In this document: positions 45,893 through 56,794 of the stretch, piece after piece
How positions within the stretch are numbered: position 1 is the stretch's first letter
Layout of the letters: every line of letters begins with the position of its first letter
Assembly: GCA_025266875.1 (NCBI GenBank)
Contig: JALLLT010000030.1
Coordinates: 124,001 to 188,000 of the forward strand
Direction: 5' to 3'
Length of the DNA: 64,000 bases
From: Fennellomyces sp. T-0311
Lineage: Eukaryota; Mucoromycota; Mucoromycetes; Mucorales; Lichtheimiaceae
Made by a program: the position numbers and the translations under genes
The notes under the pieces: generated by a model
The model's input: the letters and a program-made list of their open reading frames with translations, nothing else
Database searches by the model: none
Told to the model about the DNA's origin: nothing

Positions 45893-47940
45893 TTAATAGT
45901 CGCCTCCAAGATCGCCCTCATCATCCAAATCGCCTTCAGCGATTTCCTGTGCCAATTCTCGTTCTCTCTCGCGGGCAGCCTCTGCGTTCGCCAGCTCCTT
46001 TCTATGGGCATCCAAGGGGAAACGCATCGCCTTGACAGCGTCGTTATGAAGGTTCATGCAGAACGTAATACGTTGGTTGAATGCATGCTGAGGCTCATTT
46101 GTAGAATAAATGTCAACGATTTCCTATGAAGCAGACTCTTTTAAGTACCTAACATGATACAAAAAGCAGCCATCACTTCTTACCTTGCTCTTCATGAATC
46201 CTCCATTGTGATCCAACGTGGCATCGATAACACCGTCTCTGATGGCCTTGGACACAATGAACTCGGCATCCTCTTCGCTGTCCAAGTGAAGCTTGATGCA
46301 TATATCTCTCAAAGAAATCTTGGAATAAGAAAGACTGATCATTCGGATACCGGTCTTGATAACGTTGTGGCGAAGACGCAAAATGAGGGTATACGTTTTG
46401 TCTTTCTTGAACACTGCATCGAACTTTGCCAAACCCTCTTGGAATTTGTTCAAATCACCGATACGTACAGCTACACCACAATTATAAGCAACCTGATCAT
46501 TGATAACCCCCTCCCCACCCCCAAAAAAAGTGATGATAGATACCTTGGGTGATATGGAGATAGGGCACAAGTGCCTTTTTCAGCATTGGCTGACGGAACA
46601 GCGATCGTTCGGGAATTTCTCCAAGCAAAAGCTGGACGACAATGAAGAATTTGTAAACCTGTATGGCAGACCTTCATTAAAAACTTTTGGTTTTTGCAAG
46701 TTATTTCTGAAGCTTACTGTCTGTTGGAAACCAGCAGTAACATTGTTTTGGGGAGCTTTTCGGATTGCCTGCGTCAAATACGTGTGTGCTGAAGTGTAAG
46801 CAAGCTGAAGAGCCTTGATACGGCCGAGGTAATAGGCATAACGTGCAGCTTGGTTGTTGCCGGCGTTCTCGGGGAAAGCACTCTTGGAAACCAATTTGTC
46901 CGCTTGATCGTACAAGTTGTGCACAAAATAGTTTCGTAGCAACAGGTTCAAAATTGTTGCCTAGCAATATAAGGTAACTTAGTGGTGGTCTCTTATGCTA
47001 ACTTGCTGGTAACAAGTGCCTGTACCTGTGTTTCGTCATCACGTCGTAAAGTGGCTGTTCGCAACGAGCTCAGCTGCATTCTATTTCATGATTGTTCGTA
47101 AGAAATCCGCTCCTTTTCGGAAATCCTCATGCACTTACGGTCGAATTTCGGCAAGACGACCGGACAATTCATAGAAACGAGCGTGGTAAAAGTATACGCG
47201 AGCAGCAATTTGGTCAAGTGTTCGTCGGTTGAGCTGTGACAGTATCTCGATGGATCTATCAGCAAAGGCAAGACCCTGTGGTTGACAATTAGTGATTCTG
47301 TTCCTGAATAACCTAAAAAAAAATAGGTACCTTCTCCAACTGGTTCTGGTCCAACAAGTAGATCAAGGTCAACAGACGAAGATACACGTCAACCTCAGGA
47401 AGATCTCCACTTTTCTCCTTTGTGCTGTCCACATCCATCGCTTGGTTATCCTTCAAACAATTAGGTTTAGCAAAACGCGTACACCTGCTTTAAAATTAAA
47501 AGGAAATTACCTCGCCAAGAGTCCGTAACAGTTCAGTGCGTTGATTGGCATCTATACAATAGACATTAGTGATTCGTCTTGTTGATGGATTTCAAAGGTG
47601 CACCTGAACTGTAGTACTCCGAGATCACTTGGGCAAGAATGGATGAGGTGAGTCGTCGTCTTATAGAAGGCAGAGTTCGCAGAACACGAGTAGTGAAACG
47701 AGATTCAATCGTGTTGACAGCACGCTCCAACAGCGAAAAATTGCGCTTCAGCTCTGTAGGTGTTTTAGTAAGAATTAGATTATGCGTACACCAAAGGAAA
47801 AGGCTGTAGAAGCATGGCAACGTACCTGTAATAACAGACTGTGTTGTCTCTTTCTCTAACCGAAGCTGCTTGGCTTCTTCATCCTCTTCGATTTCCATTG
47901 CCTCAGGCTGGTTTTCTGGTTTCGCTTCGGTTGATGCCAT
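45893..47940 (-). CDS. RPN3: 26S proteasome regulatory subunit Rpn3 (PSMD3)
   Basis: Rpn3 is a lid subunit of the 19S regulatory particle. The N terminus is acidic ([22 protein letters not shown]), followed by helical-repeat segments: [109 protein letters not shown]. The PCI domain follows, with YYALTQAV-like winged-helix sequence ([46 protein letters not shown]). The tail is [26 protein letters not shown]. Ten or so small exons are separated by introns of about 50-90 nt. The start at 47940 lies just after a T-rich stretch. Confidence 0.94.
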
Positions 47941-48783
47941 AGTTGGGGATATAAGTCTTTTTTTTTGGTGCTGTGAAAAGGGACGCGTCAAGGTCGGAGA
48001 GCACTCAAACTGCACACGCAAGCTTTCACTCAGAGTCTAGGTGTGATGTCATTGGCTGGCGGACTGACGATGATGTTGCTATCCCAAAACAGTTCATTGC
48101 TTGCTCTGTTCATTCGGAAACATTCTGTTCTACCGCACATCAACAGCTTCATTGATAATCGGCCCATGCTCTCATGCGAACTCTTGTAACTGCTGCTCCG
48201 TTTAAAGAGGTTGCTACCTTAGTGAGCTGCGTCGAACGCTAAATGCAACACCGAACCAACCTCAACCGCGTACCATGCTAATGTTTCGTGGCACTATCGT
48301 TTACTTCCTTTGATATCTCAGTCACACATATCTCAAAATGAAACTACGTACCTTTATGAAGAAGAAGATATGGACTGACGTCCATCTCCCCCATGTATTT
48401 GTATGCTCTGCAATGATAGATACCCTGTATCTTGCTATACAAATGGATTGTGTAGCGACATAAACATTCATAGACTCATATCGCGTCTTTACTGACGAGG
48501 CGTGCATTGTTAACAGCAAGAATACACAGACAGAAATTATGAATTATGCAGTTTACATTTCTGGGCTTAGCCAGATAGCTATCAGAACGTCCGTTACGCG
48601 TTAAAGTAAGAGAATGCGCCACCTTTTCTTTTTGAGAAATACTTCCCTTTTTCGGAATATTGGGCCACCATTACCATATTGATCCTTCAAAAACTAAAGC
48701 AGTTTAGTCTGTCCAAAGCTGTATATATAAGAGCTGCATCCAGATAGGCAGTGCTCAGAAAAAATTAGATTGTCATAAAAAAA
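47941..48783. other. Intergenic region between RPN3 and the zinc-finger gene
   Basis: The left part is the RPN3 upstream region. No coding frame is supported. The last 60 bp contain a TATATATAA word (48720s) and an A-run (48776-48784) just before the zinc-finger gene start, which may be its core promoter. Confidence 0.45.
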
Positions 48784-51700
48784 ATGGATCTTTCCATTCC
48801 AGTACTTGAAAGCGATGAGGTTGATCAGACTATGCAGCACTTTAACCTCGCGGCTTTGTTTCCTCGAACACAAGCAACGATACCATCATTGTCTTTGGGA
48901 GACTTAAATACCAATGATATACGGTAAGAACACTGCATTTTGACACTTTGCTATTACGATGGGCTCACCATTATACTAAATGAACAGAACAAACCGGCGT
49001 GTATCATCAAAGGAGATATCACTTGGGAGTTCAATGCAAGGTAATGAACCTGATATGTTTACTGTCATTGTACTTACACTTAAGGTTCGTCAATATGCTA
49101 TATGTAGTCCCAGAATTTATTGCGCTACCTAGCAACAATGAACATCCATCGAGCGATGCAGAAAACCAATTGCCCCCGGAGTTTTTGGTGTCACATGAGC
49201 CTTTTAGCAGTACAACGTGATGCAGTCAGGATCACAAATGGATATGCAAAGTATATTTGATGAGCAGTCAGGGACAGCTTGGAATGGTAAGGTATACAGT
49301 TTTTCTTTGGGTGTAATCTCACAGTGAGCAGAATACCCAGCTTTGGGGCAGCAATATGGGCTCTTATTGAATTATCCTCACGTTTTTCACCACCCCCAGC
49401 TTGATAATTTGTTGAGTCTACCCGTCAGTCAGCACGGGCATCTAAAGAAGCAAGGTATCGAAACCGACTTGCCAGTATCATTACAAGCTCCAGCTAAACG
49501 ACAACATCTAGTGAAAGACTCTGATGACTTGCAGTATGTGTCCGACCAAACGAGGCATCGGCCATACTGGGATTTCCAGGGTTACAACTCTTCTTCATCT
49601 CAGAATATATGGGGAACCAACATTGTAGTGAATGATGATTATCACCAACTGATGTCTGAAGAGCAGTACTTCTCGCCAAAAGAGCAAATATATGCTGGGA
49701 ACGTTAGTATATCAATAAAATACGGTATATCGTCGTATATTTACTAATAGTGCGTGTATTTACTATTAGTCACAACGGGAACAAAGCATTTCGCCGTCAG
49801 AGGATATCCTACATAAAGATACGCCAGGTACTAGAAGATGGGATTCTTCAATAAATGGTTAGTCGTCATTCACCACGGGAAAGCCAGCCTCTAATAACAC
49901 GTAACCAAAGAATTTCCAAATGGCAGTTTCCTGAGAACCATCACCAACGATTATAGCAACATTGGTGATGAAGCCTATAGGATCCTAAGCCTCAAGCGTA
50001 AACGCGACTATTACGAAAGAACAAGCAGATCTACGCTTTACAAAGGCTATCCGTGCCGCGTTGAAAAATGTCTCGCCACGTTTTCTCGTTCTAGGGACGA
50101 GAAACGCCATTTTATATTAGCGCACAGTGATTTTATCGCTAAGCAATGTGAATCCTGCGGCACTTTGTTTACAAGGAGGGACAACTTTAACAGGCATATT
50201 GGAGGTAAAAGCCGGTGTGGTGACTGGTACAAGAAGGCGAGATTCAACCACAAGTTCCCAAAAAACATCTCGGAAATCGAGGTAACATCGAACAGCGATA
50301 CAAAAACAAGCTTGACCAAAGCCAGCGATGGTAAGGTGTTGAGTAATATTATATGTGGTTAACAAGAAAGTTCACATATTTCAATGATAGTACCCCAAGA
50401 AAAAATCGATCACCTAAATGTAAGTAATTGCAATTTTTACTGTCGTGAATACTAAATAACTGCAAACTTCCGATATAGTCGGCTGACTTCCTACTTTATA
50501 AGCGGCTAAAGGAATCTCAACATTCTTATTTACAAAATACTACGCTCAAAGATATATTACCGCAACTACTAGTTGAGCCCAATAATCTGCCATTTGCATT
50601 CCATGGAGAAAATGTGCCAGGTAAGTACTTCTTAGTATGATATACAAATTGCTGAAGGATTGTGCATTAAAGACTAAAATAATTTCGTTTACGTACTATT
50701 AAATATGGTGCATACCCTCTTAAATAGACATTTTTGAGAAGTGGTGCATCGTAAACATTTTAAATCCCGTTTCTAAAAATGGTAAGGTGAAACCAGATGG
50801 TCATATAAGATCGAACGTTGTGCTAGAGCCTCCTTTTTCAAACACTAAACAATTGCCGCAGCATGCGATGTACAATGTACAGAGACAAAAGTTAATTACA
50901 AATAAAAATGAAGCATATATTGAATATATATATATATATAAGCGAGTTATTTTATACCTTTATGTTTGAAAAGATAAACGACAACATGGTTGAATATGTA
51001 ATCTATGAAGGTGTATACAACTAAGAGGTGTTGAAACAAGAAAAAGAAATGAATAGATTAGATATGGTAATATGAGAAGTATGGGTAAGAAAACAAGTGA
51101 AAAAAGTGGTAATCAGATTTGACTTATTGGTTATGCCCTATGCGACGATGAGACTTGTAGAGTTTTTCAGCTTCGTAGCCATCTTTACCGTTGGCATACA
51201 GCTCAATGAATCCCCATGCTTTTCCAGAAAACCTACGTATCTGGTCCAGACCAACGGAATCCAAGAAGTTAGGCAAGTTTTGTTCCAGTGATCGGTACGA
51301 ATAGTCGCAGTTCAACCGAGCTTCGCGCTTCACCTTTCCCCAATAGCGCTCGATAAAGTTTGTTTCACAGTGGAACTTCGGATACAGTTCAAAAATATGG
51401 CCGGCCTTGCGTACTGCTTCATTTAGTGCAGATTTTTGTGCTTTAAAGTCGGGTTCCTTCTCTAAGATGTGTCGGGCACAGCAGTTACCCTCGGTTGAGG
51501 TTGGGATGCCACAAAATAGGTTCACCCGCCGATCCTCTGGCCATTTTCCACGTTCGTGGAGTATCTACGTGTGTATTTATATTTTTACAGCATTAATAAT
51601 GAGAGAATAGAGTATCAAAACAACATACCTTCTTGATACCTTTCATGTAAGTAACTTCATACCTTTTTCCTGCCTTGGAACGGACGTTTTCAGTATAGTA

Positions 51701-54700
51701 GAAATTGTATCGGATTGGGATGCCTTCTTGATCGTATGTATAACCCCACTTCTTGAATGGAAATGCCAAGTCTTCTTTTTTCTTGTCACCTAGAGTCATT
51801 CTGTTTGCCAACAGCGCATCCTTTGGGTAAGCGGCGTGATTGCTTGATTGGTCAAATGCAAAAACACCTTATCGATTTTGAAAAATGGAGTAAGTGAATT
51901 GTATTGTGCAAATTCAAATGCTTTTTCTTACCGACACAATCAGGATGCAAAATGTCAAAAATACGGATGGCTATGTCAAGCTGCGCTATCATGTGGTCGC
52001 TGGTCCACCAGCCTTCATTGTTTTTTCCCGCTTTGAAATAGACACGTGCCTCGAGCGGGTGCTCTTCTGGTAGGTGATTTTGGTTGCTTTGCTCTTGTGT
52101 AATTTTGAGTGGACCATGGCAAGCACATAAAAAATCTGATACCATTATCGAACCCCCAGGTCCTTTTTTTCTTAGAACAGATTCACCATAAGTAATCCAC
52201 ATGTCGTCCTTGGCGTCGTTGCTATAAAATGTCGATTCGTCGTGGGTTACCAGGACGTGTTCTTTCGTATATTCATTCAACAGTGGTCTCGTCACAATAT
52301 CCATATTCTCGCCAGAGAACTGACACATGAACTGCCGGAAGTGCATCATTCGTGTTGCCCATTCGAGCCTGTACGATTTGACGTCGGGACGCTCATGCCC
52401 ATCATAGTAAATCTAAAGTATCTTCATTTAACAATTACGAAAATAAAGTAGTTTAAAATATATTCTTACATTTTTACTATAGCGTTTATATCGATATCCC
52501 CATACATGTAGATAGCGGGAGATGGTGGTTTCTGCTACAGTACCTGGGACACCAAGTACTTCCGGAATGATTTTGTCTGTAAGTTCATTCTTGAGCATTA
52601 TAAGAGACCTTCTTTCTGGGTTGACGCTTTTTATAAACGATATACATCGCCTCTTGATATCTTCATCATTTAAAAGAGATTCCCTTTTTGTATGACGACC
52701 TTGTTGATGCTGCGGTAAGGCTCCAAGAAGTAAATAAGTTTTAGCCCAGCTGATAATAGACCTTCTGCGATATTCATATGATTTGATCCAGAAAGATGTT
52801 GCAGCCTTCATACTTGCTTGCTCTTTTGTACACCCAAGTACACGGTTCTTGAAATAGCAATGTACGCTCAAAAGTCGTAGTGCCTCGTACGCATTCAATG
52901 AGCCAACTTCAGACTCTGAGTTCCGTAATTGACAGACTTTGTCATGTAGCTGGGGGTATATCTCTTGAATCCTCTCGATCTCGATCAATGATTTTTTTCT
53001 CTTGACAGGCTTTGGTTTTTCAACTTGCTGCAGTACTGGTGCGGTCAGCGGCATGACTTGTCTGCCTGCTGCGGCGAAGAAACTTGTCAATGGTCTACAA
53101 CCCAGTACGCTTTGGCGCTTCATGATCTCCTTTTTTTTATCGCGCCATCGTTTCCAGCGAGATTGGCCTTCGCATATATTAACCTATTTCAGTACAAATC
53201 CTAACCACTGTACAATTTATCTATTTTCCTCACATACCAACGCGTGCTTTTTTTAAATAACTCCCTGCTCCCGGTCGCCACTCTAGCAGGCTATCCCAAG
53301 TAGTAAGTTGTAATTGGCTCTCTTCGACTGAATCCATGGCCTCTGGTATAGGAACACTTTCAATAAGATGTTGCTGCTGTGCAATAAAAATATTACTATT
53401 TTTTGCAAAACTATGACATATAAAACTTTCGCAGAACGTACTTGCGCAACTGGCACAATAAAGCGTGCTGTGGTCGAGCTCCGTACTCGTTTAGATGCAG
53501 TAGCAGCATTCCCTCTACGCTTGGGCATCTTGAATATGCATTATTGGTCAAAAGAACTGATTGTGTATGCTACATATATATATAGCATTTACGCCGCTGC
53601 AGTTCATCAGTAAAGCGGCACTGCACATATTTACAAACAGAGAAGGCGGTGTTTATAGAACGCATCCCATACAATGCACTGTATAAACATCAAATACCTA
53701 GATGAGTCACATCTTTGTTGCATAGCACATTAACAGCTACCAGCCATTCAATAAGCAATAGTCTACTACGGGGGCCTTTAACCAGCATTCATCGAATTTA
53801 ATTTTCAACCACAAATAGCCTTTCCAAACTTTACAAAATGTGAGCTAAAGTATAATTTAGGAAGTAGTCTTTTGCGTGAGATGCAAATACCATGCAGTTG
53901 AATAAATAAGTATGCATATGTATGCCTTCTTTAACAAATTTCTTTACCTATACCATCTTTTCATTTATATATATAGCAAGCCTGTAGAATGAAAGAAAGT
54001 TTCCAATAGCCTCATGGAGGTAAGAAGTGGTGATTTTTTGAAAGCACTTAGTGGTAGCAAAGAATTTTGTCTGCAAGGAATGCATGTGCGTACATTTACC
54101 TTATATAGAAATTAACTAGCTAAATCTAGGAGTACACGCTTAGAAAACGGTTGCAATTTTGGGCCTGCACTGCTTGAACTCATTCATTTCAAATCCTTTC
54201 TGTCCCTTTACTAAGTAAGATAAAAAATATTTCGTTCCAGGATTCGTATTCTAAAAGAGCCAATGCATAATAACCGTGGAAGCGTTTTACAAAATAGTGC
54301 TATCTCATAGAGTAGATAGCTTTTGAAAAAAGCAAAAATTTCTGTCTATTTAAGAAGGTATGCACCATAGAAAGCTTGTTACTTGATATATCTTCCAGTT
54401 CACGAAACAATAATGACATATGTTTACCAACAACAACAGTATTCAACGGTACCAACCTACCCGCACAATTAGGCTCGTCACAAGTTTCAACGATATTACG
54501 GCAACAGTCAGGCGTCGAAGGTTCCGAAGAACCATTCCAAAACTTACTCCAGAACGACGCAGCTGCGCAGCTAGGATTGGACAAAGTATTTACTAAACCA
54601 GCTACTGGATTTCATACAGACGATACTATTGTTGGGCATATAACACCCAACCACATAAGCTTTGATACAGCGGTACAACAGCCATCATTTCAAAAGGAAC

Positions 54701-56794
54701 AGTTACCATCCACAAAAATACAACCCAATGCAGTCCAGAGTCAGAAATCGTATAAATGGATACCATGGAAGCACCAAGAAGATACTGAATCCTACAGGAT
54801 CATACCATGGAAACATAATATTCATAATAGAGTAAGTGTATATTGCGGTATAGTCATTGTATCATTGTTTACAAGTAAGCATCACTACGGGTTATTTTGC
54901 TACGTTACATCTACGGCAAATCTCTACAAATCTACAACTCGGCAAATCTCCGAATTTCGACCATTTCGTAGATTTTATCTCCAGAGATTTGCAGTGTTTT
55001 TTCGTAGATTCGCCGTAGATCCTCCATAATATGAATACGCTTAAACCATAGCTTTTGGATGATAGAGGAACAAAAATACAACGAAAATGATGATATAAAC
55101 AATCGTTTTATTTAAGAGTTACGAGATGCTTCGTTTTCGCGCTCTCGTCTAGGTACTAAGCAGTCGCAGTCTACACTATTTGTTCTGTCGTTTTTTCGTA
55201 TTTGCTATCTTTTTCACTAGAGTTGCTACCTTTTTTCCTGAGCTTCCAATATCACTGTTGGTGACGGATGATCGCTTACGTTTGCCTATGTCCACTTTCT
55301 TTAATGTACTTTTACCTGGCTTGGTTTGCTCCTGCTTTTTCTGTGTAAATATGCCTTTTTCAGAGAAGGCTCATCGAGCTCGCTAGGATCTTCTTTGTCA
55401 CTAACAACTAAATCACTGTCATTTTCATCATTTCTACTCTTTTCACTGACACCTTTACCACTTGTATCCCCAAATCCTTCTCTCGAAAAGCCATGCTTAA
55501 CCACCGATTCAATAAATAGTGTCTTACTTGTCTGTTCGGGTCTGTCGTCTGCTGCTGCGTCAAAATCGCCCATCGGCGCGTCCAGGTCCACCGTCACGCT
55601 GGGGGCGTATGTGGTACTTGGTTACCCATCGCTTTTACCATAACTGTCATTAATCTCACAGTTGTACTGGTGGTCACTTTGGTTAAAATGAAAAGCTAGT
55701 AAACAGCTCGATATCCAATATGAAAATCTTACACTTCCTTGAATTGGACTTTCATTACCTTCATATTCATTACAAGATTAGCCATCGCGACTGGATTTGT
55801 CATTTTCAGCACTGCAAGTAATCAATATAAAGTTGTAGAAACACATCTAGTATACCTTGTATTCGTCGCATAGCTATAAGCCTCTTCAAGTTTCCTTCGC
55901 TTCTTTTGCTGTCTATTTTTCACAGTTTTTGCTTTCTTGACAAGCCCTGATTTGGCGATACGATCTCCAATATGCTGATGCTCTGTTATAAGTTTTCTGA
56001 AGAAAAGGCCATCACAGCGATGGCATTGGAATTTTCTCCGGAAAACGCTTTTTAATATTGTGATGTTTGTCATTTCATGGATGGGTGTGAAGAGTAAAGG
56101 AAAACGCGTCCAATTTTTCACGTTAAGTCCTCCGACCAAAGTAGATATGCCGCAGGTTTCTGAAGATTTCCCGTAGTGACCATATATAGCTTTATTAGCA
56201 CGCAGTAAGATTCGGATGGACATATATATATATGTTCAATCGATGTAAAACTCTCCTGGTGAAGAAACAACAAGTTTACCGCTAAAATACTAGAGAAGAT
56301 TTGCCGTAGTATTGTGGAGCTTTGCCGCACTTGAAGATAATTTTAAGATATCCCGTTGATTTGCCGTCATTTAAAACCCGTAGTGCATTATGTATTATTA
56401 GGATCAAGTGGAACAACCGGAGCCACAGACATCCCAGCTGTGCACAGAAAACAATCTCTCCTACCTACAGCCGTTCTCGAATACGTTTAAGCTCATCACT
56501 ACAGCTGTGAATAACGAACCAGAGGGTACCGCTCAAAGCAGTCAGCAAGACGAAGAAGTGAAAGAAGACGACAGAAGCTATTTCAAATGCTACGTTGAAG
56601 GATGTACAAAGCGTTTCGGGCGGCGAGGGGACATGCACCGTCACGCTTGTACACATGACAATAAGAGTAGTCGATATATCTTTTTCCATTGCTTTAAATG
56701 CGGCAAGAAGAAGAGGTATACACGCCGAGATAAATTCAAAAACCATGAGAGGAAGTGTAAAGGAATTCCACCGGGAAAATCGAGTGCTAAATAG
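48784..56794 (+). CDS. Zinc-finger protein with two C2H2/C2HC finger pairs; two transposons in its introns
   Basis: A likely DNA-binding regulator of unknown target. Coding blocks: 48784-48923, 48987-49040, about 49111-49290 (with a very short intron), 49325-49706, then an exon with YPCRVEKC...H...H and QCESCGTLFTRRDNFNRH...C (about 49920-50335), 50391-50430, 50480-50620, about 54440-54831, and 56402-56794. The last exon has a second pair: FKCYVEGC...H...H and FHCFKCGKKKRYTRRDKFKNH...C. Each pair is C2H2 followed by C2HC. The exon ending at 50620 (phase 1) fits an acceptor at 54439. The exon ending at 54831 (phase 0) fits the acceptor at 56401, so one frame can run through. The two introns hold the elements at 50706-54367 and 54883-56385. 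Alternatively these are two genes. The start of any separate second gene was not found. Confidence 0.6.
50706..50730 (+). repeat. Left terminal inverted repeat of the Tc1/mariner-like element
   Basis: Reads TGGTGCATACCCTCTTAAAT then AGACA. It pairs with the right repeat with one mismatch and is preceded by TA. Confidence 0.88.
51124..53528 (-). CDS. DDE transposase (Tc1/mariner superfamily, multi-exon)
   Basis: The start MPKRRGNAATASKRVRSSTT (53528) is basic. Downstream exons carry SLLEWRPGAGSYLKKARV and MKRQSVLGCRPLTSFF, a helix-turn-helix-rich N-terminal half (EALRLLSVHCYFKNRVLGCTKEQ, TISRYLHVWGYRYKRYSK), then the DDE catalytic core: first Asp in LVTHDESTFYSNDAKDDMW, second in FAFDQSSNHAAYPKDAL, Glu in PKFHCETNFIERYWGKVKR. 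The protein ends HRRIGHNQ. At least five short introns are needed, for example GTAAGA to AAG near 51930-51865. No stops break the exons, so it may still be active. Subfamily assignment beyond Tc1/mariner-like is not attempted. Confidence 0.83.
54343..54367 (-). repeat. Right terminal inverted repeat of the Tc1/mariner-like element
   Basis: On the minus strand it reads TGGTGCATACCTTCTTAAAT then AGACA, the mirror of the left repeat with one change, and is followed by TA. Confidence 0.88.
54880..56388. mobile_element. CACTA-type DNA transposon (54883-56385) with 3-bp target duplication
   Basis: The element starts CACTACGGGTT (54883-54893) and ends with its exact complement AACCCGTAGTG (56375-56385), an 11-bp perfect inverted repeat beginning with the CACTA hallmark. 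A CAT trinucleotide flanks both sides (54880-54882, 56386-56388), the 3-bp duplication typical of CACTA/EnSpm elements. Subterminal copies of CTACGGCAAATCT lie at 54911-54923 and, reversed, at 56297-56309. Related CGGCAAATC and GCCGTAGAT words crowd both ends, as in CACTA subterminal repeats. At 1503 bp with no recognisable transposase it is non-autonomous or carries only an accessory gene. Removing it would leave a 64-nt host intron. Confidence 0.88.
55176..56223 (-). CDS. Cargo ORF of the CACTA element, function unknown
   Basis: Open frames on the minus strand look protein-coding but need at least one intron. One contains QCHRCDGLFFRKLITEHQH, a possible C-x2-C...H-x-H metal site, followed by a basic run KNRQQKKRRKLEEAYSYATN. 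A later one is acidic and Ser/Asp-rich (SRNDENDSDLVVSDKEDPSE) and appears to continue to a lysine-rich C terminus (VDIGKRKRSSVTNSD to KKRQNK). I do not recognise it as a transposase. It could be a CACTA accessory (TnpA-like DNA-binding) protein or a captured gene. The start is uncertain. Confidence 0.4.

Follow-up and report, generated by a model that had tools for sequence, protein, structure and literature searches.

The window, a stretch of 64,000 nucleotides, corresponds to G000:C107:124001-188000 of a 45.6-Mb assembly in 182 contigs. On its forward strand it carries a C2H2 zinc-finger gene that can be modelled with ten exons, and two DNA elements, A and B, lie in the last two introns of this model (Table 1). 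Upstream of the zinc-finger gene, minus-strand frames at 46124-48036 resemble a proteasome regulatory subunit (Rpn3-like).

Table 1. Features of the zinc-finger locus and of the two elements within it (positions in the window).
Feature	Position	Strand	Remarks
C2H2 zinc-finger gene, ten-exon model	48784-56794	+	open frame, 694 aa, two zinc-finger pairs
Exon 1	48784-48923	+	start codon; phase 2 at end
Exon 2, 53 nt	48988-49040	+	phase 1 at end
Exon 3, paralogue-based extent	49114-49286	+	694-aa model takes 49230-49286 only, after a 189-nt intron 2
Exon 4	49332-49702	+	phase 0 at end, same in the C46 paralogue
Exon 5	49770-49857	+	ten-exon model
Exon 6, first zinc-finger pair	49911-50330	+	phase 1 at end
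Exon 7	50391-50419	+	ten-exon model
Exon 8	50479-50620	+	phase 1 at end; donor GTAAGT
Intron 8, 3819 nt	50621-54439	+	hosts element A; 155 nt minus element A
TA target duplication	50704-50705 (left); 54368-54369 (right)		at the borders of element A
Element A, 3662 nt	50706-54367		Tc1/mariner-like, in intron 8
Transposase gene of element A, predicted, six exons, 694 aa	51124-53528	-	gene prediction
Exon 9	54440-54831	+	phase 0 at end; without in-frame ATG
Intron 9, 1570 nt	54832-56401	+	hosts element B; 64 nt minus element B
CAT target duplication	54880-54882 (left); 56386-56388 (right)		at the borders of element B
Element B, 1503 nt, CACTACGGG...CCCGTAGTG	54883-56385		CACTA-type, non-autonomous, in intron 9
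Open frame in element B, 137 aa	55822-56235	-	no significant Pfam match
Exon 10, second zinc-finger pair and stop codon	56402-56794	+	ten-exon model

The exons on either side of each element can be joined in frame, at phase 1 for the junction 50620/54440 and at phase 0 for the junction 54831/56402, exactly as had been proposed in a sequence-only reading of this DNA. The residual introns given there were also recovered: 155 nt for intron 8 and, for intron 9, 67 nt if both CAT copies are kept and therefore 64 nt with one. The same reading placed two unrelated DNA transposons at intron positions, and this agrees with the ends that we located, those of A being flanked by TA and those of B by CAT. 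The acceptor at 54439 is not the sole in-frame choice: a scan to position 54600 found eight further AGs between 54472 and 54600. In both finger pairs the zinc ligands are kept (spacing judged by eye), and the protein matches PF00096 with E-values of 3.9e-4 and 0.074, each under the Pfam cut-off. In the protein collection the predicted zinc-finger protein had no homologues at E 0.001 or better, and an alignment of two paralogues used as query likewise gave no match at E ≤ 0.001. With no orthologue at this threshold, an orthologous empty site is therefore not demonstrable. In a check for a second allele, the stretches 48784-50703 and 54370-54882 were each found once in the assembly.

Element A is bounded by inverted ends (50704-50730 and 54343-54369) of 27 nt counting the TA, which are 96% complementary. 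We found 17 matches to it in the genome, two of them of full length, namely the window copy and G000:C108:146133-149794. Separately, pieces of element A are strewn over about 18 kb at G000:C154:56058-74603; perhaps they stem from one copy that was split by later insertions. The C108 copy is equal in length to the window copy, also lies between TAs and differs from it at 3 of the 3662 bases, all of them transitions. Given these few differences from the sole other full copy, the insertion of element A looks recent.

The predicted transposase of element A has 67 protein relatives at E ≤ 0.001; identity to the best three is 40-46% across 78-96% of the protein. Those with a named source belong to Phycomyces, Mucor, Circinella and Rhizophagus and, among weaker relatives, to Basidiomycota and Ascobolus, which hints at an early-diverging fungus as host, though weakly, because transposons can pass from one species to another. 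For two of the relatives (P0013 and P0053) the source name starts with “Tc1-like transposase”. When the query was aligned with eight of the 67 relatives, D366, D474 and E620 were invariant across all nine sequences; judging from their motif settings these residues would form the catalytic triad. The Pfam domain DDE_3 stayed below its cut-off in the query (14.0 bits, E 0.048, cut-off 28.6), and a precomputed DDE_3 match is present in two of the eight aligned relatives (P0014, P0022) and in none of the other six. A search against solved structures returned one chance match (E 0.56). By its TA duplication, its inverted ends and its putative DDE/D transposase, and with DDE_3 under the cut-off, we assign element A to the Tc1/mariner superfamily.

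The ends of element B start with CACTA. It has 36 matches in the genome, 17 of which, including the window copy, extend over 1308 or more of the 1500 query bases. A copy on contig C135 equals element B over all 1503 bases, and three further copies are more than 99.8% identical; given the identity to the C135 copy, the insertion of element B also looks recent. An exact 3-bp duplication was present in 4 of the 15 copies examined, the window copy included, where chance would predict about 0.2 assuming even base use. The remaining 11 showed no exact 3-bp duplication, two of them (L051, L052) having one end poorly placed; the count excludes copies whose match is truncated (L047, L054-L057). Some of the flanks of the 15 copies adjoin frames that by eye resemble other transposons. 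Scanning the frames of element B for a transposase yielded none.

Longer relatives of element B do carry a transposase domain. One of these on contig C139 (G000:C139:1352527-1357356; L057, L059, L061) is 4.8 kb long, matches B at both ends, holds about 3.4 kb between these ends that B lacks and contains a Transposase_21 (PF02992) domain (E 7e-12). By eye it has CAA on either side, and its left end reads CACCA. The second longer relative (G000:C123:327275-332047; L056, L062) also matches Transposase_21; its left end was not found within the 221 bases examined. Element B would thus most simply be an internal-deletion derivative of a C139-like element, and its CACTA ends, its 3-bp duplication and the tnp2-type transposase predicted in its relative place it in the CACTA/EnSpm group. 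Across the genome the Transposase_21 family reaches 150 scored matches (of 240 candidates), and the genome is therefore not poor in such elements. Given these matches and the 17 near-full copies of B (window copy included), the initial view that the arrangement is unusual for a compact fungal genome is not supported.

In the genome search, the best paralogue of the last zinc-finger exon was found at C46:678307 (52% identity); three diverged matches to this exon are also clustered at G000:C46:283559-290012 (L004, L005, L007). Modelled together with its upstream piece (L002 with L058), the paralogue forms one gene of about 2.3 kb with seven exons and 625 aa, running from start to stop without element A or B. 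Its last intron has 67 nt and phase 0 and is located at the same position as intron 9, the host of element B. In both genes the last intron ends in TATTAG, followed by GATCAAGT. In a collinear alignment of the two genes no shuffle out of 500 was as good for exon 10 (z 28), exon 9 (z 6.0) or the N-terminus (z 4.9), and one out of 500 was as good for exon 4 (z 4.4). Exons 5-6, comprising the first-finger stretch, and exon 8 did not align above chance (102/500 and 119/500 shuffles as good, respectively). At the first zinc-finger pair itself the similarity is weak (42/1000 shuffles as good), the second pair being well kept. The phases, taken from exon lengths, match at the ends of exons 1-4 and of the first-finger exon and at the start of the last exon; the borders of exons 1-2 of the paralogue were set with the window gene in view, and the phase agreement there is therefore not independent.

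The paralogue lacks a counterpart of intron 8, the corresponding stretch there being a single exon, and in the window this intron is predicted solely from its splice sites and its in-frame stops. Reading through exon 8 leads to a stop codon at 50638-50640, six codons on. This stop, the missing intron 8 and the failure of exon 8 to align can also be read as two adjacent genes: a first gene with one finger pair that ends at the read-through stop, and a second gene or gene fragment at 54440-56794, with element A between them. The genomic matches of the two finger-bearing parts point in the same direction, the first-finger exon finding eight other places and the last exon seven others, with zero overlap. 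Two genes are nevertheless improbable in our view: within about 2.3 kb the paralogue unites an N-terminus-like stretch, exon 4 and the second zinc-finger exon, and exon 9 of the window gene has no in-frame ATG, those just upstream (54413, 54420) lying in other frames. On balance, element B would occupy an old intron of one gene. The sequence-only reading had also assumed a single gene, and it is supported in this by a paralogue that joins the N-terminal part to the second zinc-finger exon, shares the last intron and is free of both elements.

The comparison with the paralogue reveals a conflict in exon 3. The 694-aa frame depends on the 189-nt intron 2, whereas exon 3 of the paralogue follows a 59-nt intron. 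After a 73-nt intron 2 the window reads PEFLVSHEPFS where the paralogue reads PSSLVIHLPFS (1/1000 shuffles as good). Frame 0 of this longer exon 3 then hits a TGA at 49218-49220, and over the remainder of the exon a different frame is open, which places the frame break near 49205-49220. The next stretch of the paralogue matches the window weakly in that other frame (128/1000 shuffles as good; not significant). This leaves three explanations: a frame-broken exon 3, true use of the longer intron 2, or an error in the assembly.

Were exon 3 broken, the gene would already be inactive and the elements would have landed in a decaying duplicate, persisting there because their host is one. The fit of frame 0 to the paralogue, with a stop soon after and a weak continuation in another frame, is consistent with such decay. 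Among the eight last-exon matches listed, window included, two contain a stop: at C107:350360 it lies inside the finger, which also speaks for decay, and at C107:376570 just before the finger and possibly outside the exon. However, exons 4-10 of the window gene are open, the zinc ligands of both pairs are kept by eye, and the 189-nt intron 2 would bypass the conflict; the match in the other frame is by itself not significant, and an assembly error could also account for the break. We put the chance that the gene is already inactive somewhat short of even. Such inactivity would be compatible with two transposon insertions into one gene, the interpretation that we prefer.

Both lengthened introns retain GTAAGT donors. 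Between element B and the 3’ end of intron 9 lie 13 nt (duplication excluded), and TTTAC, which scored best as a branch-like site in the short intron, is located upstream of B. Since B lies between TTTAC and the acceptor, the candidate branch point is now about 1.5 kb away from the acceptor. A branch-like TTGAT is present in the right end of B, at a distance of 42 nt from the acceptor. The branch-point scores, obtained with weights that we set from a fungal consensus and compared with those of 13 other introns, are a hint only. Intronic transposons in antisense orientation may be better tolerated, and elements A and B are both antisense.

A fully functional gene that splices its 3.8-kb and 1.57-kb introns efficiently would be compatible with the structural part of our interpretation. 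The conserved donors, the fingers, intact by eye, and the TTGAT in the right end of B argue for it. We consider it rather unlikely in view of the exon 3 conflict and of the way B separates TTTAC, the best branch candidate of the intron itself, from the acceptor; in addition, the Cryptococcus FRR1 insertions of a CACTA element, introns included, came from a screen for phenotype changes, according to the available passages of that report (PMC12810828). The sequence-only reading had suggested that the gene tolerates both transposons without losing frame. The frame is indeed kept at both junctions; the conflict in exon 3 and the location of B beyond the branch-point candidate stand against the remainder of this statement, and toleration of both elements by the gene is unproven. 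We give very little credence to a splicing switch, in which retention of intron 8 would yield a one-pair protein ending at 50640 and full splicing via the branch point in the end of B a two-pair protein. If it were true, the ratio between the two forms of the transcription factor would be set by the state of the transposons.

Overall, we are fairly confident that one multi-exon C2H2 zinc-finger gene was hit by two recent DNA-transposon insertions, A in intron 8 and B in intron 9. The anatomy of the locus, the target duplications, the identity of the copies and the element-free paralogue with the same last intron are direct observations. The host gene would belong to a family that is small and diverged in this genome. 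A complete Tc1/mariner-like element A would have entered a TA of intron 8, and the transposase-less 1.5-kb CACTA derivative B would have entered intron 9, where a 3-bp duplication was made; the two insertions were presumably independent events. Relatives of the tnp2 type, for example the C139 element of 4.8 kb, probably mobilised element B in trans. Given working splicing, both elements would be removed with their introns and the protein frame at both junctions would remain unchanged. The gene itself may be under weakened constraint or already impaired.

We regard the double intronic insertion as a real but ordinary event of a kind already known, and the locus leaves existing knowledge of transposons or splicing unchanged. 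It does offer a clean example, in which two unrelated DNA transposons of recent arrival occupy adjacent introns of a single fungal gene and a paralogue has the second of these introns free of the element. With it one could measure how a short fungal intron is affected when an element is inserted between its branch point and its 3’ splice site. Among the listings of a literature search, none was recognisable as a fungal gene with unrelated elements in two of its introns.

Element A resembles the fungal Tc1/mariner branch in its TA duplication, inverted ends and acidic triad, and differs from it in its predicted 694-aa six-exon transposase and in a DDE_3 match under the cut-off. As a Tc1/mariner-superfamily element within a short fungal intron it is similar to Fot1 in an intron of niaD of Fusarium, reportedly a single element with a mutant phenotype. 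A Fot1-like insertion has also been described in Aspergillus pacX, the available passages not stating whether its position is intronic (PMC4832277), and a phrase search of PMC4188875 found no phrases on intron insertion there. SmTRC1 and its animal and fungal relatives are CACTA elements with Transposase_21, and the available passages give a 2-bp duplication for SmTRC1, in 7 of 14 copies (PMC1636069). The 4.8-kb C139 relative likewise combines Transposase_21 with a CACTA-type element; unlike SmTRC1 as described in these passages, element B itself is without a transposase, and the duplications here are of 3 bp. In Cryptococcus neoformans the CACTA element CNIRT6 inserted into introns and exons of FRR1 with 3-bp duplications, as far as the available part of the report goes (PMC12810828). 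Like CNIRT6 in that account, element B is a member of the CACTA superfamily with a 3-bp target duplication in an intron of a fungal gene; the CNIRT6 insertions were recovered by a phenotype screen, whereas the window gene adds an unrelated element in another intron.
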